This document shows, piece after piece, positions 6,423-56,337 of a stretch of DNA of 64,000 bases (position 1 is its first letter; the number at the start of each line of letters is the position of its first letter). The notes under the pieces are model-generated. The model was given only the letters and a program-made list of their open reading frames with translations. It made no database searches and was not told the origin of the DNA. This stretch comes from Akkermansiaceae bacterium (GTDB taxonomy: Bacteria; Verrucomicrobiota; Verrucomicrobiia; Verrucomicrobiales; Akkermansiaceae), in assembly GCA_013041925.1 (NCBI GenBank), contig JABDRB010000029.1:124001-188000 (forward strand), written 5' to 3'. The translations under genes were made by a program, and so were the position numbers.

Positions 6423-6748
6423 GATGATTAATGGGTTGTGAGTCTTGTGTTGTGCATGAGGACGGAATGTCCTGTGGATGCGGGTATGTAGCGCAGGTAG
6501 GCACGGGTGCAAGGGGTTTTTTTGGGGTACGTGTCTAGAGGTATGCCACAAAACGGCTCGAAGGGTAATAAAGGGACAGGCCCGGGACAGGCCCGGGACA
6601 GGCCCCAAGGGCACTTAATTAAGCGGCTCTGCGGGCTTTCTGGCGCAATGCGACACGTATGCCATCGCTTGATCGTTTTTCTCTTTCACTGGCTGTCCTG
6701 TGGGGCTACGGTCGACGCGGGGAAAGAGAACATTCCCCATCAGCCTTC
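6423..6748. other. Intergenic region between divergent peroxiredoxin and DUF6288-like genes
   Basis: No gene is seen in these 326 bases. The region must contain promoters in both directions. It holds a short perfect tandem repeat at 6573-6605, listed separately. Confidence 0.5.
6573..6605. repeat. Three perfect tandem copies of an 11-bp unit
   Basis: GGGACAGGCCC occurs three times head to tail (6573-6583, 6584-6594, 6595-6605). The repeat is GC-rich against neutral surroundings and lies between divergent genes. Confidence 0.85.
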
Positions 6749-10306: not shown

Positions 10307-10402
10307 GGCACAAACCGTAAATGCCTAGACAGTGGGTCTGCGTGGTGGGTAAATGAACGCCCGACAACGCTGTTATCCACCACCATTCCATAGATTCCCA
10401 TC

Positions 10403-11857
10403 ATGATCATTTTAAGATCCCGCCTCGTGCTCGTCAGTATCGTTCTCAGCATGAGCGCAGCTGGGCCCGCCGCCGCCATCGTCAAGCCTGACAACCAAGG
10501 GCGATGGGTGAAACCGACGCAGATTGGACCTGACCAGGATGTCCCCGGCTTCCTTGTCAATCTCGGCCCCACTGGCGCGCGTGCCATCATCAAAGAAAAC
10601 TCATTTGTGGTGAAGCACGTGTTTGCGGAGTCTCCCGCCGATAAGAAGCTCATCCTCGACGACGAAATCATCGGCATCGACGGAAAAAAGTTTAACCAAC
10701 ATACCTTCGGGAGGTTCTACGGCATGAAATACGATGTCGGCTATGAAGGGCCCATCATGGACTTTGGACGTGCTATCGAAGAGAGCGAAGGAAGCGACGG
10801 AAACCTCAGACTCGATGTCATCCGCGGCGGGAAACCGGTCAGCGTCACGGTGAAGCTTAAGGCCATCGGCAAGTTTAGCGATACCTTCCCGCGTAACTGT
10901 GCCAAGTCGAAGCAACTCGCGGATGCCGCCATTGATTATGTGCACGAGCATCGCGATGATCACACCAGCGCAGTTCATGAAAAAGGAACCGTCGGCCTCG
11001 CACTGCTGGCCCGTGGGAAATCGAGTGAGGCGGAAAAGCTCGCGATGTCGTGGAATCAGATGCCTGACGCGAAATCCTGGACATGGTACCCCTCATACCA
11101 ATGTATTTTCCTCTGCGAGTATTACCTTCAATCGGGCGACAAGCGGGTATTAGACACGATCAAAAAGCTCACCGAGCGCCTATACCTCTCTCAGGTCATC
11201 GACCCCACTCGCTACAAAGACCACATGCACGGCGGCAGACCTCAGGCGAAAAATTTCCTCAAAGGCGGAAATGGCCATGGCGCACGGGTCGCAGGTTACG
11301 GGACGATGACCATCACCACCTTGCTGGCGATGCTTGCATGGGAATTGGCAGAAGACTGCGGAGTGGGTATCAATGATACCCACCTTGATCTTGCCTACAA
11401 CTGCATCCACACACACACACACGCGTCCGGCTACATGGGATACCGGTTTGCCACCGGCGCCTACACCCCGGTCGGTCGACAAGGGCTCTCCATCTTGGTG
11501 CATCAGCTCGCTGGTGACCGCGATGCGGTGCCGTATGTCAACCGCGTCACGCGCCACCTCGCAAAATCCAAAACGCGCCTCAATGATGGTCATGGCGACA
11601 ATGCGCAGGCTGTTTTCTGGGCTCTGCTGGGGATTCAGCAATCGGGTGACAAGGGGGCGATCCGCGAGGTTTTTGATTACAACAAAGCCTACATCAACAT
11701 GGCCCGCACGCACGATGGGGCATTTGTGATTCAGCCAGGGCGTAATGCGGCGGAAAAAGCGTATTACATGTCACCCCGTATCCACCTCACGGCAGGAATG
11801 GCATTGGTGCTCGGGATGGATCAGCCGGCGCTTCGGGTGCAGGGGGGGACGGAGTAA
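10403..11857 (+). CDS. Secreted PDZ-containing DUF6288-like protein, shorter paralogue
   Basis: This 484-residue protein has a signal peptide (MIILRSRLVLVSIVLSMSAAG). A PDZ-like domain (about 45-150) contains LVNLGPTGARAI and DDEIIGIDGKKF, followed by SDTFPRNCAKSKQLA, the same block seen in the preceding protein (SDTWPMNCTKSDAIV). The helical region with WYPSYQCIFLCEYYLQSGD parallels WSIGYTGIAVCEYYLRTGD upstream, so the two share ancestry. It lacks the C-terminal 600-700 residues of the larger protein. Co-orientation suggests joint function, possibly in handling an extracellular polymer, but this is inference. Confidence 0.7.
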   Translation: MIILRSRLVLVSIVLSMSAAGPAAAIVKPDNQGRWVKPTQIGPDQDVPGFLVNLGPTGARAIIKENSFVVKHVFAESPADKKLILDDEIIGIDGKKFNQHTFGRFYGMKYDVGYEGPIMDFGRAIEESEGSDGNLRLDVIRGGKPVSVTVKLKAIGKFSDTFPRNCAKSKQLADAAIDYVHEHRDDHTSAVHEKGTVGLALLARGKSSEAEKLAMSWNQMPDAKSWTWYPSYQCIFLCEYYLQSGDKRVLDTIKKLTERLYLSQVIDPTRYKDHMHGGRPQAKNFLKGGNGHGARVAGYGTMTITTLLAMLAWELAEDCGVGINDTHLDLAYNCIHTHTHASGYMGYRFATGAYTPVGRQGLSILVHQLAGDRDAVPYVNRVTRHLAKSKTRLNDGHGDNAQAVFWALLGIQQSGDKGAIREVFDYNKAYINMARTHDGAFVIQPGRNAAEKAYYMSPRIHLTAGMALVLGMDQPALRVQGGTE

Positions 11858-11885
11858 TTAAGGGTCCCGATTTTTTGCATCGCAA

Positions 11886-12818
11886 TCAATCCTTCCGCGT
11901 CAGTTCGACAAAAACATCCTCGAGGGTGGCGGTGTGACGATAGAGCGAGCGGATCGGCCATCCGTGTTGGCTGGCGAGCTCGGCGATACGCTCACGGGTA
12001 TCGGTGCCGGAGTCCACGAGCAAGGAGAAACGTGCCCACTCGTCCTCGGATGGTTCTTGGGTGATCTTTTTGACATGCTCGAGCCGCCCAAGAGCACCGG
12101 CGGCAGTTTCGGCATCGGCATCGAGTTCAACGGTGATTTTTCCGGCGGCGCGCATTTGGCTGACGAGCTCGGGGGGCGACCCGGTCGCCTTAATTTTCCC
12201 TTCATCGATGATGATGACATGGTCGCAGGTCATTTCCACCTCGCTGAGGATGTGTGTGGAAACCATGATGGTGTGGGTTTGGCCGAGGTGTTTGATGAGG
12301 TTTCGGATCGACCGGATTTGGTTCGGGTCGAGGCCGTTGGTGGGTTCATCGAGGATGAGGAGTTCGGGTTTGTGCACCAAGGCATCTGCGAGGCCGACAC
12401 GTTGGCGGAAACCCTTCGAGAGCGTTTTGATCATTTTCCGGCGGACATCGGACAATCCGCACAGGTCCATGGCCTCACCGATGTGCTGGCGGGCATCTTT
12501 CCCTTTTAACCCTTTGAGCTGAGCCCGGTAGCGGAGGTATTCGCGCACACGCATCTCATCGTAGAGCGGAACATTTTCGGGCATATAGCCGATGTGGCGG
12601 CGTGCTTTGATGGATTGGCGGAAGATATCGTAACCGGCAATCCGCGCGCTGCCTGAGCTGGGTGGGAGGTATCCGGTGAGCATGCGCAGGGTGGTGGTTT
12701 TACCTGCGCCATTGGGTCCGAGGAAGCCGACGATTTTTCCTGTGCCTACCTGGAAGCTGATATCGCTGACGGCGGCGTGGCGGCCGTAGCGTTTACTGAG
12801 ATTGCGGACGTCGATCAT
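11886..12818 (-). CDS. ABC transporter ATP-binding protein (GldA/CcmA-like)
   Basis: The 310-residue ATPase starts at ATG 12818 (MIDVRNLSKRYGRHAAVSDI); the upstream extension is not family-like. Walker A is GPNGAGKTTT, the signature region is LSKGFRQRVGLADAL with a degenerate C-loop, Walker B is LLILDEPTNGLDP, and the H-loop is VSTHIL. A C-terminal regulatory domain of about 80 residues resembles that of drug/Na+/gliding-type exporters, which use a separate permease. No permease lies next to it here, and the gene is divergent from sucA. The substrate cannot be inferred. Confidence 0.85.
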   Translation of the reverse strand: MIDVRNLSKRYGRHAAVSDISFQVGTGKIVGFLGPNGAGKTTTLRMLTGYLPPSSGSARIAGYDIFRQSIKARRHIGYMPENVPLYDEMRVREYLRYRAQLKGLKGKDARQHIGEAMDLCGLSDVRRKMIKTLSKGFRQRVGLADALVHKPELLILDEPTNGLDPNQIRSIRNLIKHLGQTHTIMVSTHILSEVEMTCDHVIIIDEGKIKATGSPPELVSQMRAAGKITVELDADAETAAGALGRLEHVKKITQEPSEDEWARFSLLVDSGTDTRERIAELASQHGWPIRSLYRHTATLEDVFVELTRKD

Positions 12819-12974
12819 AAATGACTGTGGGTGGTCGTTGGGTGTAAAAAACTTGTCGCAAAAGATGCTTGTGCGTTGACTCTCGGAGGGCGTGCCAGTA
12901 ATTAGCCCCAAGTTTCAGCGTGCACCAAGCAAGAAAAGCATGTCGAGCCCTTAAATAATCATTTTTTTTTATCT

Positions 12975-15818
12975 ATGAAATCATCGGTATCATCTCGTTT
13001 TAATGCAGATCTGCTTGAGCAAAAGTATGAGCAGTGGTGCGAGGATCCTCAGTCTGTCGAGTCTGACTGGTGTGCCTTCTTTGAAGGCTTTGAATTGGGG
13101 GCTACCCAGATGAAGCAGTCTGCCAACCACGCTGCCGCGGCATCACGCCCAGCAATTCCAAGCGAATCCCCTGATGGGACGACGCAGAATGTGGAAGTGC
13201 AATCGGTGGATGAACACTATCTGAACTTCCGAGGTAAGGTGGTCAGCTTGGTTTATAATTATCGTACACTTGGGCACACGCAGGCGCATCTCAATCCGCT
13301 CGATGAGTCAGGAGTGCGTAACCCACGTTTGGAGATTGGCCAGTTTGGTCTTGATGAGGGCGATCTCGACCGCGTGGTATCCACACAGTTTTTCCGGAAG
13401 GGTCAGAAGATGACCCTGCGTGATATGATCACGGCACTTGAGCAGACCTACTCGGGCCATATGGGCTTTGAGTTTATGCATGTCTTCAACACAGAGGTGC
13501 GGAACTGGATCCGCGACCGGGTCGAGCATCGGCATGAGCGATCGGCCGAGAAAGTGGACCGTGATCAGCCGCAGGTGCTGCGCTGGCTTCTCGAGTCGCA
13601 GCTCTTTGAGTCGTTCATCGCGAAGAAGTTCCTAGGTGAAAAACGATTCTCTCTCGAGGGGGGTGAGTCCACGATGGTTTTGCTCAACACGATCTTGAAA
13701 AGATGCCCAGCCAATGACGTGCGTGAAATTGAGATGGGGATGTCCCACCGCGGCCGGTTGAACGTGTTGCGCAATTTCCTGCAAAAGTCGCTGACGACGT
13801 TGCTTTATGAATTTACCCCGAATTACGTGCCCGATCTTGTTGCAGGTGATGGTGATGTGAAATACCACTTGGGATACGAAGGTGTGCGTAAGCTTCCTGA
13901 CGGGGAGGTCCGTGTCGCCCTAGCGGCCAACCCGAGTCATTTGGAAGCGGTGAATGCCGTCGTTGAGGGCAGGGCGCGCGCGCGCCAGAGGCTGGTTGAT
14001 GGTGACATCATGGAGTGCCGCCGTTTGGTGACGGAAGAGCACCGTAAAAAAGTGCTGCCGATTCTTCTGCACGGTGACGCCGCCTTTGCGGGTCAGGGGT
14101 CCGTGGCGGAGGTGTTAAATCTTTCCCAGCTTCCGGGATACCGCACGGGCGGGACAATCCACATTATCATCAACAACCAGATTGGATTCACCACCATGCC
14201 TGAGGATGCGCGATCGTCGCATTATGCAACGGATGTCGCTAAAATGATCGAGGCACCCGTGATCCATGTTAATGGTGAGCAACCCTCTGAGTTGGTGTGG
14301 GCTGCGGAGTTGGCCCTTGAATTTCGCCAGAAATTCGCACGTGACATCGTTATCGATATGTACTGCTACCGTCGTCGGGGTCACAATGAGGCGGACCAGG
14401 CGGCATTTACCCAACCGCATATTTACAAGCAGGTCGACGTCCGTCAACCGATTGGGCATACCTACAAGGAGCGTGTCGTGGATGAGGGCTTGATGAGTCA
14501 GGCTGACGCGGATGGGGTTGAAAATGAGGTGATGGCGCAATTGGATGAGGGTTATGACAGGATGGTCAAGCACATGGAGGCGGGTGACCGCACCGTGTTC
14601 AGTGGATCGACGGCCGAGCCACAGCCGAGCTACTCACATGCACCCGTGCCCACTGGGATTTCCCATGATACCCTGCAGCACATCGGAAAGATTTTAACCA
14701 CCATCCCCGAGGGCTTCAATTTACATCAAACCCTCGCCAAGCGTTTTATTCCACGCCGTCAGGATGCCCTTAAACCTGGGGGTTCCTATGACTGGGCATT
14801 CGCCGAGTCTCTGGCATGGGGCTCGCTGCTGATGGAGGGTCACCCGGTGCGCCTCTCCGGCCAGGATGTCAAGCGCGGCACATTCAGCCAGCGTCATGCC
14901 GTGTTTTATGATTCTGAAGTGCGAGACCTTCAGCATATTCCTCTGAAGGAACTATCGGATGATCAGGCGAAATTCTGTGTTTATAATAGCCTTTTATCTG
15001 AAGCTGCCGTGTTAGGTTTTGACTACGGGTATTCGCTTAGTAGTCCTAATATGCTGATCATGTGGGAGGCGCAGTTTGGCGATTTTGCCAACGGAGCGCA
15101 GGTGATCATTGATCAGTTTATTGCGTCGGCTGAGTCGAAGTGGCAGACGCCGAGCAGCTTGGTGATGCTTCTTCCTCACGGCTATGCGGGTATGGGGCCT
15201 GAGCATTCCAGTGCGCGTTTGGAAAGGTTCCTTCAGCTTTGTGCGGAGAAAAATATCCAGGTGGGGAACCTCACCACACCTGCCCAGTATTTTCATGCCT
15301 TGCGCAGGCAGAAGAAGCGTGGCTTCCGCAAGCCTCTCATCTTGATGACGCCCAAGAGTCTGTTGTCGCGACCTGAAGCCGTCTCCAAGGAAGAGGATTT
15401 CCTTGAGGGCTCCTGTTTCCAAGAAATCCTTCCCGATGTGAAGGAGTTTGAAAACCCGAACGAGGTCGAGCGTGTTGTTTTTTGTACTGGCAAGGTGTTT
15501 TATGATCTGGCTAAATTTCGTGACGAACATGCCATCAGCAACACGGCCATCATCCGTATTGAACAACTTTACCCGTTTAATGTCGAGATGCTGGAGTTGA
15601 TGATCAGCCAGTATTCCCAGGTCAACACGTGGGTTTGGGCTCAGGAGGAACCCCGAAATATGGGCGCGCGCTCCTACATCACACCACGCCTTGAGCAGGT
15701 TCTTAAAACTCGCATCCAATACGCCGGTCGTAAGTCATCCTCCAGTCCCGCCGCCGGATCCAAGGCACAGCATATCCGCGAACAAAAGTCGCTCATCGAG
15801 CAAGCATTTGAAGTTTAA
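12975..15818 (+). CDS. sucA: 2-oxoglutarate dehydrogenase E1 component
   Basis: The 947-residue thiamine-diphosphate enzyme decarboxylates 2-oxoglutarate in the TCA cycle and passes succinyl groups to E2. The N-terminus has the E1o signature (FNADLLEQKYEQWCEDPQSV and DWCAFFEGFE). GMSHRGRLNVL, NPSHLEAVNAVVEG and GDAAFAGQGSV lie in the ThDP domain, and LLPHGYAGMGPEHSSARLER plus the end of the transketolase fold complete it. Length is normal for the family (about 930-950). sucB follows after 38 bases. E3 (lipoamide dehydrogenase) is not in this cluster. No Shine-Dalgarno sequence is obvious before the start; the leader is T-rich. Confidence 0.97.
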   Translation: MKSSVSSRFNADLLEQKYEQWCEDPQSVESDWCAFFEGFELGATQMKQSANHAAAASRPAIPSESPDGTTQNVEVQSVDEHYLNFRGKVVSLVYNYRTLGHTQAHLNPLDESGVRNPRLEIGQFGLDEGDLDRVVSTQFFRKGQKMTLRDMITALEQTYSGHMGFEFMHVFNTEVRNWIRDRVEHRHERSAEKVDRDQPQVLRWLLESQLFESFIAKKFLGEKRFSLEGGESTMVLLNTILKRCPANDVREIEMGMSHRGRLNVLRNFLQKSLTTLLYEFTPNYVPDLVAGDGDVKYHLGYEGVRKLPDGEVRVALAANPSHLEAVNAVVEGRARARQRLVDGDIMECRRLVTEEHRKKVLPILLHGDAAFAGQGSVAEVLNLSQLPGYRTGGTIHIIINNQIGFTTMPEDARSSHYATDVAKMIEAPVIHVNGEQPSELVWAAELALEFRQKFARDIVIDMYCYRRRGHNEADQAAFTQPHIYKQVDVRQPIGHTYKERVVDEGLMSQADADGVENEVMAQLDEGYDRMVKHMEAGDRTVFSGSTAEPQPSYSHAPVPTGISHDTLQHIGKILTTIPEGFNLHQTLAKRFIPRRQDALKPGGSYDWAFAESLAWGSLLMEGHPVRLSGQDVKRGTFSQRHAVFYDSEVRDLQHIPLKELSDDQAKFCVYNSLLSEAAVLGFDYGYSLSSPNMLIMWEAQFGDFANGAQVIIDQFIASAESKWQTPSSLVMLLPHGYAGMGPEHSSARLERFLQLCAEKNIQVGNLTTPAQYFHALRRQKKRGFRKPLILMTPKSLLSRPEAVSKEEDFLEGSCFQEILPDVKEFENPNEVERVVFCTGKVFYDLAKFRDEHAISNTAIIRIEQLYPFNVEMLELMISQYSQVNTWVWAQEEPRNMGARSYITPRLEQVLKTRIQYAGRKSSSSPAAGSKAQHIREQKSLIEQAFEV

Positions 15819-15856
15819 TTCTTCCCCCTTTTTCAAACTAATAACTTATATTTCCT

Positions 15857-17314
15857 ATGGCTACAGAAGTCAAAATTCCCAACGTTGGAGAGTCCATCAC
15901 CTCCGCAAATGTCGCACGCTGGCACAAACAAGACGGTGAGTCTGTGGCCAAAGGTGAAACGGTGCTAACCATCGAAACAGATAAGGTTTCCAATGACCTT
16001 GAAGCGGGCGATAGCGGCACGCTGAAAATCCTTGTCCAAGAAGGTGAAGAAGTCGCCATCGGCTCGGTGGTCGGGATGATCGAAGCAGCTACTGCCGCGC
16101 CGGCGGAAATGGCGCCAGCTGGCTCGGACGCTCCGTCAGAACCGACGGCTGCGGTATCTGGCACCCATGAAGCACGGGTGATCGATATCAAGGTTCCCGC
16201 TGCAGGAGAGTCCATCACCTCGGCGAATATAGGCCGGTGGCATGTTGCCAACGGATCTGCTGTCTCCAAGGGGGACTGCCTTGTGACGCTTGAAACCGAT
16301 AAGGTTTCCAACGAGCTCGAAGCCGAAGAAAATGGAGTGATGCACATCATTGTATCCGAAGGGGAAGAGGTCCCTATCGGCACCGTGATCGCTACTCTGG
16401 CTGTCGGTGAGGCGGGTTCCGCACCGCAGAGTTCTCCGGTCGTGCCCGAGCCCGTAAAAACGCCACCCGTTGCCACGCCCGCGCCTGCTCCTCAAGTTGC
16501 GCCATCTCCCGTGGCAGCACCCGTGGTCACCACACCCGCCGTTGCGTTAAAGCCCGACCTCTCAGTTACCCCTGATGTTTCTGAGCGTTCCGGTTCGTTG
16601 CAGAGCGAGGATGGAGGTCGGACGAGCCGACGGAAGATGAGTATGCTGCGCCGCAAGATTGCCAGCCATCTCGTTGGTGCTCAGCAGACTGCCGCAATCC
16701 TGACAACCTTCAACGAGGTGGATATGTCCGCAATCATGAAGTTGCGGAAAGAGGTGCAGGAGGACTTTGTGGCGAAACACGGATGCAAACTAGGTTTCAT
16801 GTCATTTTTCGTTAAAGCCACGGTGCAGGCGCTCAAGGATGTGCCAAGTATCAATGCGCGCATCGATGGCAACGACATTGTGCAAAACCATTTCTACGAC
16901 GTGGGTGTCGCCATCGGCACGGAGAAAGGCTTAGTGGTGCCTGTTTTACGCGATTGTGAGCAAAAAGGATTTGCTGAAATTGAACAAGAGATTCTCAGCT
17001 ACGCAGTCAAGGCGAACGAAGGAAAGATAGAGCTCGCCGATCTTCAGGGGGGTGCCTTTACGATCTCGAATGGAGGTGTCTACGGATCCTTGCTCAGCAC
17101 GCCGATTCTCAATCCTCCGCAGAGCGGGATTCTCGGGATGCATACCATCCAGCAGCGTCCGATGGCCGTGAATGGTGAAGTGGTCATCTTGCCGATGATG
17201 TATCTCGCGCTGAGTTACGACCATCGCCTTGTCGATGGCAAGGAGGCGGTCACCTTCCTGATCCGTATCAAAGACGGCTTAGAAAATCCAAGTCGACTCA
17301 TGCTTGAGATGTGA
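15857..17314 (+). CDS. sucB: 2-oxoacid dehydrogenase E2 (dihydrolipoamide succinyltransferase) with two lipoyl domains
   Basis: This 485-residue E2 is the acyltransferase core of the 2-oxoglutarate dehydrogenase complex. Two lipoyl domains are visible, with lysines K43 ([10 protein letters not shown]) and K149 ([10 protein letters not shown]). A Pro/Ala/Val-rich linker (about 187-255) leads straight to the catalytic domain, which begins near [20 protein letters not shown] and ends with the active-site motif [11 protein letters not shown]. The usual peripheral subunit-binding domain (SPAxRKLAxE... GTGxxGRITKxDV pattern) between lipoyl and catalytic domains is not recognisable. SucB proteins more commonly carry one lipoyl domain. 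Coupling to sucA 38 bases upstream supports the 2-oxoglutarate assignment. Confidence 0.92.
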
Positions 17315-17386
17315 TGGCAAACGATGTAGGTTTCCGCATTCGGTCGTCGATTCATTGACGGGATGCGGGGAAACGATGAAGAAACC

Positions 17387-18298
17387 ATGGAATATTTGTT
17401 TATTTTTCTGAAAGGCTTCGCCATGGGGGCGGCGAATGTGGTCCCGGGGGTTTCCGGGGGGACGATTGCTTTTATCACCGGGATCTATGAGCGGCTGATC
17501 GATGCCTTGAAGTCGTTCGATTTCCACGCGCTGCGCTGCCTCATGAAATTTGACTTCGCGGCATTTGCCCGGCATGTGGATTTGGGTTTCCTGGTTGCCT
17601 TGGGGCTGGGTGTGCTGACCAGCATTCTGACCTTGGCGAAGCTCCTCAAACAGGCATTTGAGGTGTGCCCGGTATTTGTCGGTGCGTTTTTCTTTGGACT
17701 GATCCTCGCGTCGATTTTTTCTGTGGGAAGGATGGTGAATCGCTGGAGAAGTGTGGAAATTATCGCTCTACTGGTCGGTCTGGCTGTAGCGGTTTGGCTC
17801 GCGTTTTTGAACCCAGCCGGTGAAGACACCCGCCCGGCCTATCTGGTTGCGTGTGGCGTGGCCGGCACGTGCAGCATGATTATTCCAGGGATTTCTGGGT
17901 CCTTCATTCTGCTGCTCATGGGGAACTACAAACTGATTGTGCTGGATGCCGTCAATGACCTTCGGCAGCTGGACTTCTCTGCATCATTACCCGTCCTGAT
18001 CCCCGTAGCGATCGGAGCCGTGGTTGGTTTGGTGGCACTTTCGCATATGCTCAGCTGGTTGTTTAAACGTTATCACGATACCGCCGTGGCGTTGATTTCG
18101 GGTTTTGTGGTGGGTTCGCTGGCCATCATTTGGCCATGGAAGCACGCGGTGTATTCCACCGTGATCAAGGACAAGGTAGTTTCTTGGAGATGCATTTGCC
18201 CCGATTTTCAGCTGAGTGACACCTGGTTGGCGATCGCATGGCTTGTGGCTGGGGTGGCCATCATCGGCGTGATGGAAAAACTCGCGGCCAAGCGATAG
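17387..18298 (+). CDS. DUF368 family membrane protein
   Basis: A polytopic inner-membrane protein of about 303 residues. The hallmark GFAMGAANVVPGVSGGTIAF occurs at the N-terminus and a related GTCSMIIPGISGSFILLLMG in the second half, the two inverted-repeat-like signatures of DUF368 proteins (related to DedA/undecaprenyl-phosphate flippase-type folds). Members have been linked to undecaprenyl phosphate recycling; this protein's role is inferred from family only. I chose ATG 17387; ATG 17363 would add eight polar residues. The stop codon lies one base from the stop of the convergent cotransporter gene. Confidence 0.85.
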   Translation: MEYLFIFLKGFAMGAANVVPGVSGGTIAFITGIYERLIDALKSFDFHALRCLMKFDFAAFARHVDLGFLVALGLGVLTSILTLAKLLKQAFEVCPVFVGAFFFGLILASIFSVGRMVNRWRSVEIIALLVGLAVAVWLAFLNPAGEDTRPAYLVACGVAGTCSMIIPGISGSFILLLMGNYKLIVLDAVNDLRQLDFSASLPVLIPVAIGAVVGLVALSHMLSWLFKRYHDTAVALISGFVVGSLAIIWPWKHAVYSTVIKDKVVSWRCICPDFQLSDTWLAIAWLVAGVAIIGVMEKLAAKR

Positions 18299-43058: not shown

Positions 43059-44855
43059 TTAGGCTTGGGCTTCGCCAATGTGTTTCCTGTGAGCCAGGAA
43101 GCCGTAGAGGGCGATGGCGATAAAGCAGACCAGAGGAAGCACAAAGGATGCGCGGGTGCTGGTGAGGGTCATCGAGCCAAGCTGGAAGGCGTCTTTATCC
43201 ATGATGGCAGCTTGCAGGGGGGGCATGAGGCACCCACCACCGATGGCCATGATGAGCCCTGCGGCACCGAGCTTGGCATCGTCGCCGAGGCCGTCCAGTG
43301 CAATGCCGTAGATGGTGGGGAACATCAGTGACATACAGGCGGAGACGCCGATCAGGCAGTAGAGGCCTAGCATGCCTTGGATGAAGATGACGCCGAGGAC
43401 CAATGCACCACCGCCGACGGCGAGTGCAGAGAGCAGTCCGCCTGGGCTGACATACTTAAGCAGGAAGGTGCAGACAAAACGGCTGCTGACAAAGATAAAC
43501 ATGGCAATGATGTTATACCCCTGCGCTGTGGATGCCCTCATGCCGAGCTCGTTGCCAGCGTATTGGATGATAAACGTCCAGATCATGATCTGTGCTCCGA
43601 CGTAGAATGCCTGAGCGATGACGCCGCCGACGTAGTTGGAGTTTTTGGAGAGGCGTTGGAAGGTGGCGCCGAGATGGAGTGACTTATCGTCTTCGCCCTG
43701 ACCTTCAGGGAGTTTTTTGATGAGGAAAACAAAGAAGAAGATGGCGACCACAATACCGATGGCGAAGTAGGGGCCTTGGAGCACATTGAGGTCGGCTTTT
43801 TGGATGCCGATCCACTTGTCCGTGTCGGTTTGTGCGATGAGTGAGCGCGCCTGTTCCTCATCGGGTGATCCGTCGAGGATCGGGCTCTGCTCCCAGTTAA
43901 CCTCTTTGCCCTTGCTGATTTTGCGGGTGATTTTTGTTTTATCCTTGTCGGTGAGTGCGGCGTCGAGCGACTGGGCTTGTAGGAGTTCCCACTTTTGGGC
44001 ATCTGAGGTTTCAGTATTGGATGTGATGGCCAGCGACTTGGCGAGGCGTTGGTGGTCGGCCTGGATGAGTGTGAGTGCCTCACCCCAGTTGACGTCTTTG
44101 TTTTCATTGAGGGAGGTTTCGATGTGGCCCTTGGCCTTGCCTCCTACCCAACTTGCGAGTCCGAGTTCTTGGATTTTTTCCCACTTCACGGCATCAAGTG
44201 ACATCGACTCAGGGTTGAGTTTTTTGTTGGAGATCGTGATATCGCTTTTTTGACCCGTTTGGGTGACCTCAGTGATGAGGTCATGGGCTTCGGTAGCGAG
44301 GACAGGTGCGAGCTCGGGGTCATGTTTGACGGATGTCAAGTTGGCGAGAATGAAGATCATTGCGACAAACATGCCACAAATAGATCCCATCGGGTTAAAC
44401 GACTGGGAGAGGTTGAGCCGGCGTGTGGCGGTTTCCTGTGATCCCATCGACAGAATGTATGGGTTGGCGGTTGTTTCTAAGAAGGAAAGTCCGCAGGTCA
44501 TGGTAAAGTAAGCTAACAGGAAGGCCCAGAATGCCATCATCTGTCCGGCAATGGGGAAGAAGAGTGCCGATCCCGCATAAAGCGCGAGGCCGACGAGGAT
44601 TCCTTTTTTATAGGAGTATTTTTTAATGAAAAGAGCTGCCGGAATCGCCATGAAACAGTAACCGCCGTAGAACGCGGCTTGAACCAGTGAGCTTTCAAAG
44701 TTGCTAATGAGTAGGATCTTTTTGAAGGCCGCCACCATCGGGTTCGTGATGTCGTTGGCAAAGCCCCAGAGCGGAAAAAGGAGGGTCACCAATATGAAGG
44801 TGACGAGGTGCTTTTTGGCAACGACGGGTGGTTGTGAGTTGGTGTTCGTGGTCAT
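43059..44855 (-). CDS. Fucose permease-like MFS transporter with large periplasmic insertion
   Basis: The 598-residue member of the FHS/FucP sugar:H+ symporter family is about 160 residues longer than E. coli FucP. The first five helices (LVTFILVTLLFPLWGFANDI; LSFLETTANPYILSMGSQET; LNLSQSFNPMGSICGMFV) and the last seven are canonical. Residues about 176-355, between helices 5 and 6 and therefore predicted periplasmic, are hydrophilic and contain an imperfect 64-residue tandem repeat (DAVKWEKIQ at 221, DAQKWELLQ at 285, DKWIGIQ at 346; KDVNW at 253, KEVNW at 317). It is the last gene of the BMC operon, set off by a hairpin. The likely substrate is L-fucose or a related deoxysugar. Confidence 0.85.
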   Translation of the reverse strand: MTTNTNSQPPVVAKKHLVTFILVTLLFPLWGFANDITNPMVAAFKKILLISNFESSLVQAAFYGGYCFMAIPAALFIKKYSYKKGILVGLALYAGSALFFPIAGQMMAFWAFLLAYFTMTCGLSFLETTANPYILSMGSQETATRRLNLSQSFNPMGSICGMFVAMIFILANLTSVKHDPELAPVLATEAHDLITEVTQTGQKSDITISNKKLNPESMSLDAVKWEKIQELGLASWVGGKAKGHIETSLNENKDVNWGEALTLIQADHQRLAKSLAITSNTETSDAQKWELLQAQSLDAALTDKDKTKITRKISKGKEVNWEQSPILDGSPDEEQARSLIAQTDTDKWIGIQKADLNVLQGPYFAIGIVVAIFFFVFLIKKLPEGQGEDDKSLHLGATFQRLSKNSNYVGGVIAQAFYVGAQIMIWTFIIQYAGNELGMRASTAQGYNIIAMFIFVSSRFVCTFLLKYVSPGGLLSALAVGGGALVLGVIFIQGMLGLYCLIGVSACMSLMFPTIYGIALDGLGDDAKLGAAGLIMAIGGGCLMPPLQAAIMDKDAFQLGSMTLTSTRASFVLPLVCFIAIALYGFLAHRKHIGEAQA

Positions 44856-44965: not shown

Positions 44966-45895
44966 CTAGGCGTTGGCCACGTTTTTTAGCATCTCCTTGA
45001 GGGCGCGGGCGGATGCTTGCAGGCCTTGTTTTTCCTTCGGCCAGAGGTCGATCTCGATGTGCTTTTCAGCACCACCTCGGCCGACGATGGTGGGCACGCT
45101 GAGGCAGACGTCCTTGAGTCCGTAGCAACCGTTTTGCAAGCTGGAGACTGGGAGGAGTTGTTTTTTATCGAGTGCGATGGCGTGGACGGTTTCGGCGATG
45201 GTGGCACCGACGGCCCACCCGGCACCCCCTTTGCGTGAGATGACTTCGGATCCGCTCTTTTTGGTGCGATCGAAGATCTGGCGCTGGTAGTTTGAGTCAC
45301 ACCCTTTGACGCCGGTGAGCGGGAGGCCACCGACGGTGGCGGATGACCAGACAGGTAACATGGTGTCGCCGTGTTCGCCAAGAATCAGGGCCTTGACCTG
45401 AGTCGGTGCGAGGTCGAGGTCGTTGGCAATGAGCGATCGGAAGCGTGCGGTATCGAGCATGGTGCCGAGACCGATCACCTGGTTCGGTGGCAGCCCGAGG
45501 AAGCTCACCGCGAGGTGGGTGAGGATATCGACCGGATTAGAAACGACGACCACGATGGCATCTTGTTTCATGCCAGCGGATTTGATGCTGTTGAGGATCT
45601 GAGAAAACAGTCCGACGTTGCGGTTGATGAGATCGAGTCGGCTTTCATCAGGTTTGCGGCGCAGGCCGGCGGTGATGATAAAGATGTCGGAGTCCGCAGC
45701 ACGGGCGTAATCACCCGAGTAGATACGTTGGTCGGCGAGGGATGACGCACCGTGAAGGAGGTCGAGGGCTTCGCCGTCGGCGAGCTCTTGGTTGTTATCG
45801 AGGATCTGGATTTCAGAAACGACGCCTGCGCACTGGAGGCAGAAGGCGGCATTGGATCCAACGCGGCCACCGCCGCCGATGATAGTTGTTTTCAT
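44966..45895 (-). CDS. Lactate/malate dehydrogenase family protein of the BMC operon
   Basis: This 309-residue NAD-dependent 2-hydroxyacid dehydrogenase has an N-terminal Rossmann motif (TTIIGGGGRVGSNAAF), ILDNNQELADGEALDL, NPVDILTHLA, and the catalytic His in ILGEHGDTMLPVWS. In the substrate loop (AGLRRKPDESR, 76-86) the residue before Lys-Pro is Arg80, where lactate dehydrogenases have Gln and malate dehydrogenases have Arg; other loop positions are LDH-like. It belongs to the BMC operon and probably either oxidises lactate from lactaldehyde to pyruvate or recycles NAD+/NADH. No encapsulation peptide is obvious, so it may be cytosolic. Confidence 0.85.
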   Translation of the reverse strand: MKTTIIGGGGRVGSNAAFCLQCAGVVSEIQILDNNQELADGEALDLLHGASSLADQRIYSGDYARAADSDIFIITAGLRRKPDESRLDLINRNVGLFSQILNSIKSAGMKQDAIVVVVSNPVDILTHLAVSFLGLPPNQVIGLGTMLDTARFRSLIANDLDLAPTQVKALILGEHGDTMLPVWSSATVGGLPLTGVKGCDSNYQRQIFDRTKKSGSEVISRKGGAGWAVGATIAETVHAIALDKKQLLPVSSLQNGCYGLKDVCLSVPTIVGRGGAEKHIEIDLWPKEKQGLQASARALKEMLKNVANA

Positions 45896-45934: not shown

Positions 45935-46921
45935 TTACAAGGAGACACCAGGTTTGAAGGCGTCGTTGTCACAAACTTGGCATTCGTCGAGTCCGTCGCG
46001 GTGATCGTCCATGCCCAGGCTCTTACGAATATCGATCAGGTCCTGTCCTTGTTTTCCGGTCATGGTGAGCATTTTACCGCGGTTGATTTGAGCTGCTACC
46101 GAAACGGTGTGGCAGAGTGCCTCTGCATTTTCCATCCGCCAGTAGGCGTCCTCAACATGGCTTCCCCAGGTGATGACACCGTGGTTGAGCATGAGCACAC
46201 ACATGTGGTCGACACCTGTTTCACCGACGATGCGGGCGACTTCTGGGGTGCCAGGCGTATCGTAGGGCGCCATACCAATTTCGCCGAGGAAGACGTCGGC
46301 TTCAGGAATCATGCAGAGAGGCGGGCGGACGCCGGCGACGGCAAAGGCCGTGGCGTGAGTCGGGTGGGCGTGACAGACCGCCTTGCACTTCGGCTGGCGC
46401 TTCATGATGGCGAGGTGGGTCATGCACTCGCTGGTGCGGGGCCGCTTGCCGGCGAGCTGATTGGCATCGAGGTCGACGAGGCACATGTCCTCGGGTTTCA
46501 TAAATCCTTTGGAGATGAGGGTGGGGGTGCAGAGCACGAGGTTGTCACCCACGCGGATGGTGAAGTTGCCACCATTACCATCGGTGTAGTCGCGCTCCCA
46601 CATGCGTCGTCCTAGGTCGCAGATCCGCTCTTTGAGCACGTGGATTTCAGGCGAGTAAAAGAAGTCGAGGATTTCGCCGGGGGTGCTTGGGTCAGCGCCG
46701 GGGGTCCATTTATACTCGTAGTCGGGTAATACCGGTTCTTCGTAGCTTGTGGGTCGGGTCGGTGCCGCAGATGAGTTGGTGTTTCCACCTCCGTTATTTT
46801 CGAGGTCCTTGAGGAAGTCCTTGGCGGAGGGGGTCAAGATGGCGCCGGCGGGGAGTGAGTTCGGGCTTTGGCCGGAGAGGATGAGGTCCTCGATTTGTTT
46901 GGCGGTGTAGACAGGTTTCAT
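45935..46921 (-). CDS. BMC-associated class II aldolase, paralogue 1
   Basis: The 328-residue protein starts at ATG 46921 (MKPVYTAKQIEDLILSG), matching the start of the neighbouring paralogue; a TTG nine bases earlier is less likely. Residues 4-16 form an amphipathic, encapsulation-peptide-like helix, followed by AGAILTPSAKD and a low-complexity linker to about 65. The class II aldolase/FucA domain has GNGGN (phosphate site), Glu165, the zinc ligands His184 and His186 (CHAHPTHATAF) and His247 (NHGVITWG). The C-terminus carries ECQVCDNDAFKP. It probably cleaves L-fuculose-1-phosphate or L-rhamnulose-1-phosphate to lactaldehyde and DHAP. Confidence 0.88.
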   Translation of the reverse strand: MKPVYTAKQIEDLILSGQSPNSLPAGAILTPSAKDFLKDLENNGGGNTNSSAAPTRPTSYEEPVLPDYEYKWTPGADPSTPGEILDFFYSPEIHVLKERICDLGRRMWERDYTDGNGGNFTIRVGDNLVLCTPTLISKGFMKPEDMCLVDLDANQLAGKRPRTSECMTHLAIMKRQPKCKAVCHAHPTHATAFAVAGVRPPLCMIPEADVFLGEIGMAPYDTPGTPEVARIVGETGVDHMCVLMLNHGVITWGSHVEDAYWRMENAEALCHTVSVAAQINRGKMLTMTGKQGQDLIDIRKSLGMDDHRDGLDECQVCDNDAFKPGVSL

Positions 46922-46980
46922 AGTGGTCAAATAGTGGTCAATGGTGGGATCTGATCAGGTGGATACGGTTTGGAGGATGA

Positions 46981-48123
46981 TTAGCTCATTTTGGCGACGA
47001 TTTCATCGGTGAGGGCTTTGACAATTGCCTCGGCATCCAGATTGAGAGGTGTTTCTTGCTGGATGGGGCTGGGCGTGATTTCACAGACGGTGCCAGGGCG
47101 GAAGTCGTCGTTATCGCAGAGTTCACATTCCTTCATGCCTTCACGTGGATCATCCATGCCGATGGATTGACGGATTTTAAAGATCTCCTGCATTTTGTCA
47201 CTGGGGATGGTTTTCATCTTGCCGCCATTGAGTTGGCTGGCGACCCAGATGGTTTGGCAGGCGGTCTCCATGTTTTCCATTTTCCAGTAGCTGTCCTCGG
47301 CATCGGTGCCCCATGTCATCACGCCGTGATTGGCGAGGAGGATGGCGGGGTTGTCTTTGGCGACTTTGGACACGGCATCACAGATTTCTTTGCTTCCTGG
47401 GGTGTGGTAATCGACGAGGCGGATCGCTCCGGTGAAAACCTCCGCTTCGGAGCAGAGGCAGGTGGGAGGTTCGATGCCAGCCACGGCAAAGGCGGTCGAG
47501 TAGGGCGGGTGGCCGTGGATCACGCTTTTCGCCTTCGGTTGCACCTTCATAATGGCGAGGTGGGTATTGGCTTCGCTGGTGCGTTTGCGCCATCCAGCTT
47601 TTTGGTTGCCATCGAGGTCGACGAGTGCGATTTCGTCGGGTTTGAGTTCGCCTTTCGAGCGCATGGTGGGTGTGCAGAGGACGAGGTTATCACCGACGCG
47701 CACGGTGATGTTGCCGCCGTTGCCGTCGACCATATTGCGGTTCCACATTTTGTGGGCGATATGGGCCATTTGCTCTTTGAGGGTTTGGATCTCAGGCGAG
47801 TAGAAAAAACGTTGGATGTCCTCGGGAGTCGAGGCGTCAGCACCGGGTGTCCACTTGTATTCGAGGCTGGGGACGATGGGTGTGGGTGGCACGGTGGGAA
47901 CACCGGCGGGAAGGTCTGGCAAGCGTTGGGTTTCGCTGGTGGCCGGGGCGGCAGGGCTCGCTACAGTTGGCGGATTGACGCCGTAGCCAGTATTGCCTTT
48001 TTTGTGTTCGCGGATCTCGTCTTTTGCCGATGGGGTGAGAACGGACCCTGCGGCAATGGTATCGAGACAAGTGCCTTGTTGGATCATGTCCTGGATGTCT
48101 TTTCCCGTGTAAACTTTCTTCAT
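46981..48123 (-). CDS. BMC-associated class II aldolase, paralogue 2, with helices at both ends
   Basis: The 380-residue paralogue of the next gene starts MKKVYTGKDIQDMIQQG, an encapsulation-peptide-like helix, then AGSVLTPSAKD and a Pro-rich linker (about 40-87). Catalytic Glu184, zinc ligands His203/His205 (HGHPPYSTAF) and His266 (NHGVMTWG), and GNGGN are all present. The C-terminus contains ECELCDNDDFRPG (CxxC 333-336) and then, unlike paralogue 1, a 40-residue extension ending in a second amphipathic helix (LDAEAIVKALTDEIVAKMS). Both ends could therefore dock to the shell. The two aldolases may differ in substrate (fuculose- versus rhamnulose-1-phosphate) or form a mixed assembly. Confidence 0.88.
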   Translation of the reverse strand: MKKVYTGKDIQDMIQQGTCLDTIAAGSVLTPSAKDEIREHKKGNTGYGVNPPTVASPAAPATSETQRLPDLPAGVPTVPPTPIVPSLEYKWTPGADASTPEDIQRFFYSPEIQTLKEQMAHIAHKMWNRNMVDGNGGNITVRVGDNLVLCTPTMRSKGELKPDEIALVDLDGNQKAGWRKRTSEANTHLAIMKVQPKAKSVIHGHPPYSTAFAVAGIEPPTCLCSEAEVFTGAIRLVDYHTPGSKEICDAVSKVAKDNPAILLANHGVMTWGTDAEDSYWKMENMETACQTIWVASQLNGGKMKTIPSDKMQEIFKIRQSIGMDDPREGMKECELCDNDDFRPGTVCEITPSPIQQETPLNLDAEAIVKALTDEIVAKMS

Positions 48124-50739: not shown

Positions 50740-51036
50740 TTACTTCTTAGCGGCTTTGGCTGCCTTGGGAAGCATCTCACCGAGGGCATTGTCAGGGCGC
50801 GCGATGACGTGGGCGCTGATGACTTCACCGACTTGTGAGGCAGCGGCGGCACCGCTATCAATGGCGGCTTTGACGGCTGCGATGTCACCTTCGACAACGA
50901 CGTTGCACATGGCGCTGCCGATCTGACTCATGGGGCCAGAGAGTGTGACGTTAGCGGATTTCAGCATCGCGTCGGTGCCGTTGACAAGGCCGATGAGGCC
51001 GCGGGTTTCGAGTATTCCTATTGCTTGTTTAGCCAT
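50740..51036 (-). CDS. BMC-H hexameric shell protein (third of three)
   Basis: A 98-residue Pfam BMC-domain protein (MAKQAIGILETRGLIGLVNG; VEGDIAAVKAAIDSGAAAAS). The pore-loop region reads SQIGSAMCNVVV, unlike the other two. It ends with a Lys/Ala-rich tail (KAAKAAKK). Hexamers of this fold tile the facets of the shell. It lies between the acetate kinase gene and a BMC-P. Confidence 0.95.
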   Translation of the reverse strand: MAKQAIGILETRGLIGLVNGTDAMLKSANVTLSGPMSQIGSAMCNVVVEGDIAAVKAAIDSGAAAASQVGEVISAHVIARPDNALGEMLPKAAKAAKK

Positions 51037-51101
51037 GGTATTCGTGGGTTGGTAGTGGGTTGGTTAGTAAGTTGAGTTATCGAGAGAGAGATTAAAAGGG
51101 G

Positions 51102-52280
51102 TCAGGCGAGGATCTTGCGCTGCACCTCACGGGCGAGCACGAGTTCCTCGTTGGCCGGGATGACAAGGATTTTAACCTTGGAGTCGGAAGCACTGATTTC
51201 GGCTTCCTCGGCGATGCATGCGGCATTTTTTTCGGGGTCGATGTGGATGCCAAATTCTTCGAGCCCTTGGCAGATGGCGGCGCGTAGCCACGGGTGGTTT
51301 TCGCCGATGCCAGCGGTGAAAACCAGGGCGTCGACGCCACCGAGTTCGAAGAGGTAGCTGGCAGCCCATTTTCGTGCCGAGTGGACGAGCATATCGAGTG
51401 CGAGTTGGGCGTCGGTATGGCCATCGGCGGCGGCCTCGCGGATATCGCGCAGGTCGTTGCTGATTGTGGAAACACCTTGGAGACCGGATTCCTTGGTCAG
51501 TTGGCGTTCGGCCTCCTCGAGGGAGATCCCCAGCGTTTTTACAGCGTAGGGGATGGCACCTGAGTCGAGGTCACCGACGCGGTTGTTCTGCGGCAGACCG
51601 CTCTGGGGTGAGAACCCCATGCTGGTGCCGGTGGCGACACCATTGCGGATGCCAGTCACCGAGCTACTGCCACCGAGGTGGAAGGAAATGACGCGCACGG
51701 GGGCGTCTGAGATGTTCTGTGGGCCATCGACGTAGAGTCGGCGGACGGTTTCGGCCACGTCATCCCGCCCCATGAGCTCGGCTGAGCGTTCTGCGACGTA
51801 TTTGTGGCTGGCTCCGTGGAAGCCATAGCGGCGGATGCCCGCGTCGTGCCATGCCTGAGGCAGCGCGTAACGTGAGGCTTCCTCCGGGACCCACTGGTAA
51901 AAGGCGGTCTCGAAGAGGGCAACGAGGCGGGCCTTGGGAAGGATCTGAGCAAATTGTCTGATCCCTTCGGCGTAGGGTGGGTTGTGGGCTGGGGCCACCT
52001 CGCGGAAGCCTTCCAGCGCGTCAATGACGGCGGCGTCGGCATCCACGCAGCCACTCAGATTTTTGCCGAGCACGGTCTTGAATCCCACGGCATCAATATC
52101 GCTGATGACGTTGAGATGACCTTGGTCGACGAGGTCGGAGAGGGCTTTGTGGATGACATCCGCGTAGTCGGTCACACGTTCGAAACCGCCTGATGCGACC
52201 ACACGCTCATCGTTACCGTCAATTTGATAGAGACGGTATTTGAATGAGGTGGACCCCAGGTTGGCGATTAGGATACGCAT
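51102..52280 (-). CDS. Acetate kinase-family enzyme of the BMC operon, with divergent active site
   Basis: The 392-residue ASKHA-family kinase starts MRILIANLGSTSFKYRL. The overall AckA pattern is kept (RRYGFHGASHKYVAERSAEL, TSMGFSPQSGLP, FTAGIGENHPWLR), but canonical positions differ: the usual HRVVHGG is FKTVLGK here (the Arg equivalent to Arg91 becomes Lys), FDTAFHQ is FETAFYQ (the Asp equivalent to Asp148 becomes Glu), and HLGNGAS is HLGGSSS. In this operon it should convert an acyl-phosphate made by PduL, probably lactyl-phosphate, to lactate with ATP formation. Substrate preference for a bulkier acyl group is inference. Confidence 0.85.
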   Translation of the reverse strand: MRILIANLGSTSFKYRLYQIDGNDERVVASGGFERVTDYADVIHKALSDLVDQGHLNVISDIDAVGFKTVLGKNLSGCVDADAAVIDALEGFREVAPAHNPPYAEGIRQFAQILPKARLVALFETAFYQWVPEEASRYALPQAWHDAGIRRYGFHGASHKYVAERSAELMGRDDVAETVRRLYVDGPQNISDAPVRVISFHLGGSSSVTGIRNGVATGTSMGFSPQSGLPQNNRVGDLDSGAIPYAVKTLGISLEEAERQLTKESGLQGVSTISNDLRDIREAAADGHTDAQLALDMLVHSARKWAASYLFELGGVDALVFTAGIGENHPWLRAAICQGLEEFGIHIDPEKNAACIAEEAEISASDSKVKILVIPANEELVLAREVQRKILA

Positions 52281-52309
52281 TTTTTTAGAGATGTCGGGTG
52301 GTGCTTGGA

Positions 52310-52588
52310 TTAGGAAATCCAGCTGCCGAGTTGGCCGAGATCTTCGTGAGGGCGGGGGATGACGAGAACGGAGTTCACTTCACCGATCTGTGCTGCTGCT
52401 TCTGCGCCGGCGTCAACGCCTGCTTTCACTGCTGCGACATCGCCAGTGAAGAATCCGCAGACGAGACCTGAGCCGATTTTATCCCAGCCTGTCATGGTGA
52501 TGTCAGCGGCCTTGATGGCGGCATCTGATGCTTCGATCAGGGCGGGGAGGCCTTTTGTTTCAATCATTCCAAGTGCTTGCTTTGCCAT
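52310..52588 (-). CDS. BMC-H hexameric shell protein (second of three)
   Basis: The 92-residue BMC-domain protein starts MAKQALGMIETKGLPALIEA. The pore loop reads WDKIGSGLVCGFF, the conserved helix TGDVAAVKAGVDAGAEAAAQ follows, and the end reads PRPHEDLGQLGSWIS. It lies 29 bp before the acetate kinase gene. Confidence 0.95.
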   Translation of the reverse strand: MAKQALGMIETKGLPALIEASDAAIKAADITMTGWDKIGSGLVCGFFTGDVAAVKAGVDAGAEAAAQIGEVNSVLVIPRPHEDLGQLGSWIS

Positions 52589-52632
52589 AATAGTATGTAG
52601 TTAGTGGTTGGTGTGGATGGTGGTATCCGACA

Positions 52633-52902
52633 TTAGAGGTCGAATTGCTTTAAGAGTTCAGGGGCGGGGCGTGCGATGACGTGGGCACCGGTGAGTTCAC
52701 CGACGCGGCCGGCTGCTTCTGCGCCGGCGTCAACGGCTGCTTTGACGCTACCTACATCTCCTTGGACGAGGATCGCGAGCAGTCCTGCACCGACTTGTAC
52801 TTGTTTGACGATATCTACGTCTGCGGCTTTGGCCATTGCATCTGCGGCCTCCACGCTACCGACGTAGCCTTTAGTTTCTATCATTCCCAGGGCTTTGTTC
52901 AT
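52633..52902 (-). CDS. BMC-H hexameric shell protein (first of three)
   Basis: The 89-residue BMC-domain protein starts MNKALGMIETKGYVGSVEAA. The pore loop reads VQVGAGLLAILV, and QGDVGSVKAAVDAGAEAAGR and AHVIARPAPELL complete the fold. It is the canonical-looking major shell component and the first shell gene after pduL. Confidence 0.96.
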   Translation of the reverse strand: MNKALGMIETKGYVGSVEAADAMAKAADVDIVKQVQVGAGLLAILVQGDVGSVKAAVDAGAEAAGRVGELTGAHVIARPAPELLKQFDL

Positions 52903-54552: not shown

Positions 54553-56337
54553 ATGAAAACCGTATTTAAATCAGACAACCTTCCTAAAATTGGAATCCGC
54601 CCAACCATCGACGGTCGACTCGGAGGAGTTCGCGAGTCGCTCGAAGACCAGACGATGAATCAGGCGAAGGCAACGGCCGCCTTACTTGCCCAAAACCTAC
54701 GCTACCCTGACGGGTCAGCGGTCGAGTGTGTCATCGCGGACACCTGTATTGGTGGCGTGGCTGAGGCGGCGGCCTGTGCTGATAAGTTTAAACGTGAGAA
54801 TGTAGGAGTATCGCTCACGGTTACCCCATGCTGGTGTTATGGTTCTGAGACCATGGACATGGATCCTCATACACCGAAGGCGGTTTGGGGGTTTAATGGC
54901 ACCGAGCGCCCTGGGGCGGTTTACTTGGCGGCCGCGCTCGCGGGTCATAGCCAGAAGGGGTTGCCTGCTTTTGGTATTTATGGCCGTGATGTGATGGAGT
55001 CGGATGACACCTCCATCCCAGAGGACGTCGCACACAAAATTCTATCGTTTTGCCGCGCTGGATTGTCGGTTGCGTTGATGCGCGGGAAGTCCTACCTCTC
55101 GCTCGGTGGCACCTCGATGGGGATTGCCGGCTCGGTGGTGGATCCTGATTTTTTCCAAGACTACCTCGGGATCCGCGTTGAAGCGGTGGATATGACGGAG
55201 GTCGCCCGCCGTATCGATCACGGGATCTACGATCCCGTAGAATACGAAAAAGCGCTGGCATGGGTGAAGAAAAATTGCCCTGAGGGGAAAGACTACAATA
55301 GCCAGGAGACCCAGCGGCCACGCGAGGTGCTTGATGCCGAGTGGGAGACATCCGTCAAGATGGCACTCATTGCCCGTGACCTCATGGTAGGAAACGACCG
55401 GCTCGCCGAGCTCGGCTACGGGGAAGAAGCCCACGGGCGAAATGCGATTTGTGGCGGCTTCCAAGGGCAGCGCCAGTGGACGGATCACTACCCGAATGGC
55501 GACTTTATGGAGGCGATCCTGACAAGCTCCTTCGACTGGAATGGCAAGCGTGCCCCGTATCAATTTGCCACTGAGAACGATGCGCTGAATGCCGTGACGA
55601 TGATGTTTGGTCACCTGCTGACCAACACCGCGCAGATCTTTGCTGACCTTCGCACCTATTGGTCGCCTGACGCGGTCAAGCGGGTTGCTGGGCATGAGCT
55701 TACTGGGGCGGCATCGGATGGTTTACTTCATTTGATTAACTCGGGTCCCGCGACGCTTGATGGCACGGGTCAGATGATCGAGGGCGGCAAGCCTGTGATG
55801 AAGCCCTTCTGGGATATCACCGATGAGGAGGTGGAGGCCTGCCTCGATGCCACCACCTGGCACCCGTCGATTACGGAGTATTTCCCTGGGGGAGGAATGA
55901 GCACCCGCTATGCCACCCAAGGTGGTATGCCGGCAACGATCGCTCGGCTCAATCTGGTAAAAGGGATCGGGCCGGTTCTGCAAATTGCCGAGGGGGTCAC
56001 CGTTGAGCTTCCTGAGGACGTGCATGATGCGCTTGACGAGCGCACCAATCCATCCTGGCCAACGACCTGGTTCTGTCCGAAGATTACCGGCGATGGAGCA
56101 TTCCGCGACACCTACTCGGTGATGAATAACTGGGGGGCGAACCACTGTGTCATGAGCTACGGGCACGTGGGTGCCGATCTGATTACGCTGGCCTCGATGC
56201 TGCGTATCCCCGTTTACATGCACAACGTCAGTGAAGACCGCATCTACCGACCCTCGTCATGGGCTGCTCATGGAACATCCGATTCTGAAGGTGGCGACTT
56301 CCGAGCCTGTGATAACTATGGTCCGTTGTATGGTTAG
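54553..56337 (+). CDS. fucI: L-fucose isomerase
   Basis: The 594-residue enzyme is close in length to E. coli FucI (591). It converts L-fucose to L-fuculose with Mn2+. The N-terminus [20 protein letters not shown] is the family signature; [35 protein letters not shown] and the C-terminal [20 protein letters not shown] are also conserved-looking. It lies 64 bp after the DeoR gene. A kinase for L-fuculose was not found in the window. Confidence 0.95.

Follow-up and report, generated by a model that had tools for sequence, protein, structure and literature searches.

The L-fucose:H+ symporter FucP of Escherichia coli (PDB 3o7q and 3o7p; TIGR00885) is among the described systems closest to the transporter analysed here, and both have the core of 12 transmembrane helices (TM) of the major facilitator superfamily (MFS) in common. 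Between the two blocks in which the proteins can be aligned, E. coli FucP has 20 residues, whereas 179 residues are present in the FucP described here. Like the latter, the mammalian PepT1 and PepT2 are MFS importers that carry an inserted folded domain on their outer face; this extracellular domain binds trypsin, but it consists of two immunoglobulin-like folds and belongs to another transporter family (PMC4597091). A literature search, carried out mostly at the abstract level and with limited subscription coverage, returned no paper on the TM5-TM6 loop of FucP. The FucP transporter family is known; the repeat-bearing long loop is new.

The window, i.e., the stretch of 64,000 nucleotides of Akkermansiaceae DNA analysed here, contains a gene whose product is, judging by its sequence, a FucP-family L-fucose:H+ symporter. 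In agreement with the original prediction, it scores 499.8 bits with the FucP equivalog model TIGR00885 (curated cut-off 280.4) and matches E. coli FucP (PDB 3o7q) with an E-value of 2.8e-57, and it is the sole FucP match of its genome at E 0.001. The full-length AF2 model (pLDDT 88.5) has the MFS fold, as determined by VIA-align against 6kkl (Z 40.7, rmsd 2.5, 367 aligned residues). In E. coli FucP, the acidic residues D46 and E135 are of functional relevance. E135 aligns to E127 of the window FucP, which is invariant in 43 rows. At the position of D46 the window FucP has N38, with D35 three residues earlier, and both are nearly invariant in these rows.

The gene set of a PVM-type microcompartment (BMC) for fucose or rhamnose comprises shell proteins, a class II aldolase, an aldehyde dehydrogenase, a PduL-type transferase and an acetate kinase. 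This set is complete in the window, where a gene for a DeoR-type regulator is found as well (Table 1). The linkage of fucP with fucI and the aldolase/BMC locus bears out the fucose context that had been proposed for the transporter. Both aldolases carry similar short N-terminal peptides (VYTAKQIEDLI and VYTGKDIQDMI) ahead of the catalytic domain, which perhaps serve in targeting to the microcompartment.

Table 1. Features of the fucP gene and its locus; positions refer to the window.
Feature	Position	Strand	Basis
FucP-type L-fucose:H+ symporter, 598 aa, with enlarged TM5-TM6 loop (predicted periplasmic)	43059..44855	-	TIGR00885, PDB 3o7q, AF2, MFS fold
Last TM5 helix, residues 154-172	44340..44396	-	AF2 secondary structure, E. 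coli alignment
Inserted segment, residues 175-328	43872..44333	-	mostly missing from L031; helix predicted
Repeat unit 1, residues 221-284	44004..44195	-	self-alignment offset 64, hhalign probability 93.5
Repeat unit 2, residues 285-346	43818..44003	-	self-alignment, hhalign
Native pre-TM6 helix window, residues 343-361	43773..43829	-	short-loop HMM and PSSM
Helix 345-379, native loop helix continuing into TM6	43719..43823	-	AF2
Lactate/malate dehydrogenase (ldh) of the BMC locus, flanking the FucP slot	44966..45895	-	Pfam, synteny
Two class II aldolases of the BMC locus	45935..48123	-	Pfam
BMC shell proteins	50740-51036, 52310-52588, 52633-52902	-	PF00936
Acetate kinase, within the block 50740..52902	51102-52280	-	Pfam
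L-fucose isomerase FucI	54553..56337	+	1064 bits to NF008220

Residues 14-179 and 359-581 of the window FucP have counterparts in E. coli FucP, and in the AF2 model the stretch between these blocks sits between TM5 and TM6 and is mainly helical. Both results support the proposed placement; judging from the E. coli homologue of known structure, the stretch would be periplasmic. With 179 residues between the aligned blocks as opposed to 20 in E. coli, the net insertion is about 160 residues. The statement that FucP has only a short loop at this site applies to E. coli, whereas it fails for many PVC relatives. Short-loop PVC FucPs (e.g., L031, L066 and L111, of which L031 is the closest short-loop relative) have a core that is 70-72% identical to that of the window FucP and share its pre-TM6 helix, whereas their loop segment comprises 45-53 aa as compared to 201 aa. 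Folded alone, the insert is predicted to be helical, with mean pLDDT values of 83.8, 78.7, 78.0, 66.4 and 39.2 in the five models. No Pfam family was found above the cut-off, the best match among the PDB sequences has an E-value of 0.21, Foldseek found no solved fold at E 0.001 or better for the insert model, and the best Z in a VIA-align comparison with solved folds is 4.3. None of these four lists contains a convincing known family or fold for the insert.

All motifs reported for the loop could be located at their predicted positions: DAVKWEKIQ at residue 221, DAQKWELLQ at 285, KDVNW at 253, KEVNW at 317 and KW-x-x-IQ at 347. The predicted period of 64 is exact: when the loop is aligned to itself without gaps, the best match is obtained at an offset of 64 (residues 221-282, score 83), and none of 1000 shuffles of the loop reached this score (mean best-offset score 28.3, sd 4.5). 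In the congener L002 the same offset gives a score of 79, and again 0 of 1000 shuffles are as good. The two units are identical at 19 of 62 positions in the window FucP and at 15 of 62 in L002, with 13 positions identical across all four copies. The two proteins are closely related, and thus the evidence obtained from them is not independent. A comparison of unit 1 and unit 2 by hhalign, using three-sequence profiles, resulted in a probability of 93.5 (E 2e-7, 41 columns). In the Planctomycetaceae protein L062 the repeat halves have diverged and are not significant on their own (fractions of 0.186 and 0.217 of the shuffles are as good). The stretch 175-220 was rejected as an additional copy (hhalign probability 0.2 against unit 2).

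There are strong indications at the sequence level that the repeat unit originated as a copy of the native pre-TM6 helix together with a spacer. Short-loop FucPs have a common stretch immediately before TM6, and an HMM built from 75 short loops matches residues 332-366 of the window FucP with an E-value of 1.9e-9 (search size set to 1). KW-x-x-IQ at 347, originally described as a third partial copy, is present but is therefore part of the native stretch. This HMM gave no significant match to the inner repeat copies (iE 0.08 or worse). A PSSM of the 19-residue native helix was derived from the same 75 short-loop homologues, excluding the three long-loop proteins. Averaged over these three proteins, it scores 23.4 at its own site, 8.9 at position 284 and 5.9 at position 220, which are the repeat positions, and -2.7 or less in all remaining windows; the background of the windows starting before residue 330 has a mean of -17.7 (sd 6.6). 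At the two repeat sites, the individual scores are 9.5 and 10.1 in the window FucP, 12.6 and 9.4 in L002, and 4.6 and -1.6 in L062. Since the PSSM ranks the two repeat positions highest within the insert, the latter probably expanded through copying of the native helix and a spacer, which would have been duplicated in tandem to give the enlarged TM5-TM6 loop.

As far as searched, the distribution of the insert is narrow. It is carried by two of the 260 genomes of the family and, among 392 genomes of the phylum of L062, only by that of L062 itself. A profile also covering the native stretch matched two of the 387 genomes searched from the phylum of the window, namely the window genome and G318, the latter with the native part only. 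The carriers found are the window genome, one congener (L002) and one metagenome-assembled genome (MAG) of the Planctomycetaceae (L062). In the genomes searched, the insert occurs only in FucP and in no unrelated permease. L062, which belongs to another phylum, has a core that is 73% identical to the window FucP, and its aligned loop segment comprises 200 residues. A core tree was calculated from 128 FucP-like rows after removal of the loop and of the partial row L019, using a quick search with SH-aLRT support only. In this tree, the window FucP, L002 and L062 form a clade (SH-aLRT 98), whose sister is a FucP with a 53-aa loop (97), indicating that the long loop is derived.

Furthermore, it is strongly indicated that the long-loop gene replaced the resident FucP gene within the genus. 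Genome G006 of the same genus has an identical gene order from fucI to ldh and ppdk, with locus genes that are 65-94% identical by best match (ldh 94%, ppdk 83%). In its slot between ldh and ppdk, however, a distant FucP is encoded on the opposite strand, which is 46-59% identical over the aligned parts and has a 106-residue loop unrelated to the insert. G005 shows the same arrangement as G006 across the shorter stretch covered by its contig. In G010, the long-loop gene is located immediately after ldh on the same strand, as in the window. Forcing the seven FucPs of the genus together (query, L002, L004, L005, L006, L011 and L012; the same-genus row L013 stood among the others and L018 was absent) is rejected with a p-AU of 7e-50. 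Due to this rejection and the distant FucP in the conserved slot, a replacement of the resident gene is the most likely explanation. The 106-residue-loop and the repeat-loop FucPs thus occupy one genomic slot in related genomes, so that the effect of the domain is directly testable.

The insert is under purifying selection. Between G000 and G010, a single genome pair, its dN/dS is 0.194 (bootstrap 0.11-0.33) as compared to 0.051 for the core, i.e., about four times higher, and the alignment of the insert is gap-free. By hand count, 11 of 16 residues in 175-190, seven of eight in 218-225 and 13 of 14 in 324-337 are invariant in all three carriers, while the fraction is lower in 237-284 (11 of 48) and in 285-323 (11 of 39). 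The best-kept parts therefore include both ends of the insert.

Large insertions are also present in other FucPs at the same site. Across the 128 rows the loop segment varies between 24 and 254 aa: 82 rows have at most 53 aa, 16 have 66-72 aa, 19 have 100-121 aa, two have 154-174 aa, three have 200-201 aa and six have 234-254 aa. The last class consists of L009, L040, L064, L074 and L076 (Verrucomicrobiota and Kiritimatiellota), which share a different TM5-TM6 loop of 245-254 residues, and L063 (Planctomycetota) with a loop of 234 residues, the start of which resembles that group (hhalign probability 71). These loops are unrelated in sequence to the window insert (hhalign probability 0.5 and 0.1) and lack the 64-residue repeat; against all four other long-loop groups compared the probability is 0.5 or less. 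A reduced tree, likewise from a quick search with SH-aLRT support only, comprised 88 rows, after removal of L018, L020, L021, L022 and of four fifths of the rows with a 42-aa loop; on this tree, loops of at least 150 aa require five changes. A single origin of the nine rows with loops of at least 200 aa is marginally rejected (lnL 53 lower, p-AU 0.047), whereas a single origin of the six 234-254 aa loops is not rejected (p-AU 0.39); the groups were defined after the first tree had been viewed, and these tests, like that of the genus FucPs, lose weight accordingly. For this reason, several origins but no exact number are claimed, and the remaining long loops appear to have evolved on their own at the TM5-TM6 site. 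A scan for internal repeats in 31 rows with loops of at least 100 aa (60 shuffles each) highlighted only the window FucP, L002, L063 (z 4.7, offset 51) and L016, a FucP from another genus of the family (z 6.2, offset 13), while L062 has a z of 0.8. A duplication suspected by eye in the loop of L008 found no support (z 0.7).

Regarding the role of the insert, our preferred reading is an accessory module that acts as a vestibule or in docking and aids fucose uptake, with tolerated growth of the loop as a close rival. The product of the duplication would be a small, helical domain that sits on the N-terminal half at its periplasmic face, and since it is tethered to TM5 at one end and to TM6 at the other, both in this half, it would be expected to move rigidly with it. 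Exported fucosidases would release fucose outside the inner membrane, and the domain could help the importer to take it up. The genome encodes three GH29 fucosidases with signal- or lipoprotein-like N-termini, as judged by eye. For this chain from helix duplication to a helper of uptake, we see about an even chance. According to the rival, the loop grew nearly neutrally and the domain is functionless, kept merely folded and out of the way. The wide range of loop lengths with repeated changes on the tree, the dissimilarity of the insert to the other long loops and its elevated dN/dS relative to the core all agree with such growth. The dN/dS value itself and the gap-free alignment argue against it, as do the nearly constant length and the retention of the invariant blocks in L062, and the long-loop version seems to have displaced the resident FucP. 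Growth without function is, in our judgement, quite possible but less likely than the favoured role.

In a narrower form of the favoured role, a periplasmic fucosidase or binding protein would dock on the domain and pass the released fucose to the symporter. This has a precedent in the trypsin-binding domains of PepT1 and PepT2 (PMC4597091) and would suit the exported-looking fucosidases. The genes of these enzymes are located on other contigs than fucP, however, and conservation is poor in the middle of the repeats. A Pfam search of the 30 larger proteins of the window (three without a match) revealed no glycoside hydrolase or TonB receptor as partner gene near fucP. The gene neighbours of the L062 fucP differ from those in the window, and no partner could be recognised there either, except a large malectin-domain protein encoded downstream. 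Each of the four genomes searched has TonB receptor matches, among them G318, which lacks the insert, and thus the TonB-type partner of the original prediction has no specific support. Docking in this strict sense is considered unlikely. Direct binding of fucose or fuco-oligosaccharides by a substrate-capture domain is very improbable: only the predicted periplasmic location speaks for it, whereas the domain is predicted to be helical and no carbohydrate-binding family or clear fold was matched in the lists searched. That the insert is part of the microcompartment system is scarcely credible. Shell genes are present in all three carriers, and a BMC was found in 19 of 28 genomes with 66-121 aa loops versus seven of 29 with loops of at most 53 aa (uncorrected for kinship), but the fucP of L062 lies outside the BMC locus, none of six genomes with 234-254 aa loops has a BMC, and the segment is predicted to be across the membrane from the cytoplasmic compartment.

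The BMC survey covered 69 genomes, 30 of them positive. By loop class, the positives are 7/29 (at most 53 aa), 8/11 (66-72 aa), 11/17 (100-121 aa), 1/2 (154-174 aa), 3/3 (200 aa) and 0/6 (234-254 aa); the window genome was entered by hand as positive, and two rows are omitted because neither had a separate loop row, namely L084 and L083 (the latter apparently from the same genome as L005). Due to this mixed pattern, with middle classes richer in BMCs than the short one and none in the longest (uncorrected for kinship), a simple link between loop growth and BMCs is doubtful rather than refuted. The longest loops occur without a BMC, and loop growth therefore does not need one.

In a wider and speculative reading, the TM5-TM6 loop is a hotspot at which periplasmic domains are built independently; here the domain would have been made from the transporter's own helix, moved across phyla and displaced the resident FucP through an advantage in uptake, for instance by fucosidase docking. 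Taken as a whole, we would give this scenario only a small chance. The data also point to a route by which a transporter may extend itself by an outer domain made of its own components.

For L062, the contig with fucP is not the one that carries the BMC genes. Directly downstream of its long-loop fucP, a protein of 2458 residues with malectin and Ig-like domains is encoded (10088-17464, forward strand). In the window, two neighbouring DUF6288 proteins with PDZ-like stretches are encoded on the forward strand at positions 6659-10306 and 10403-11857.
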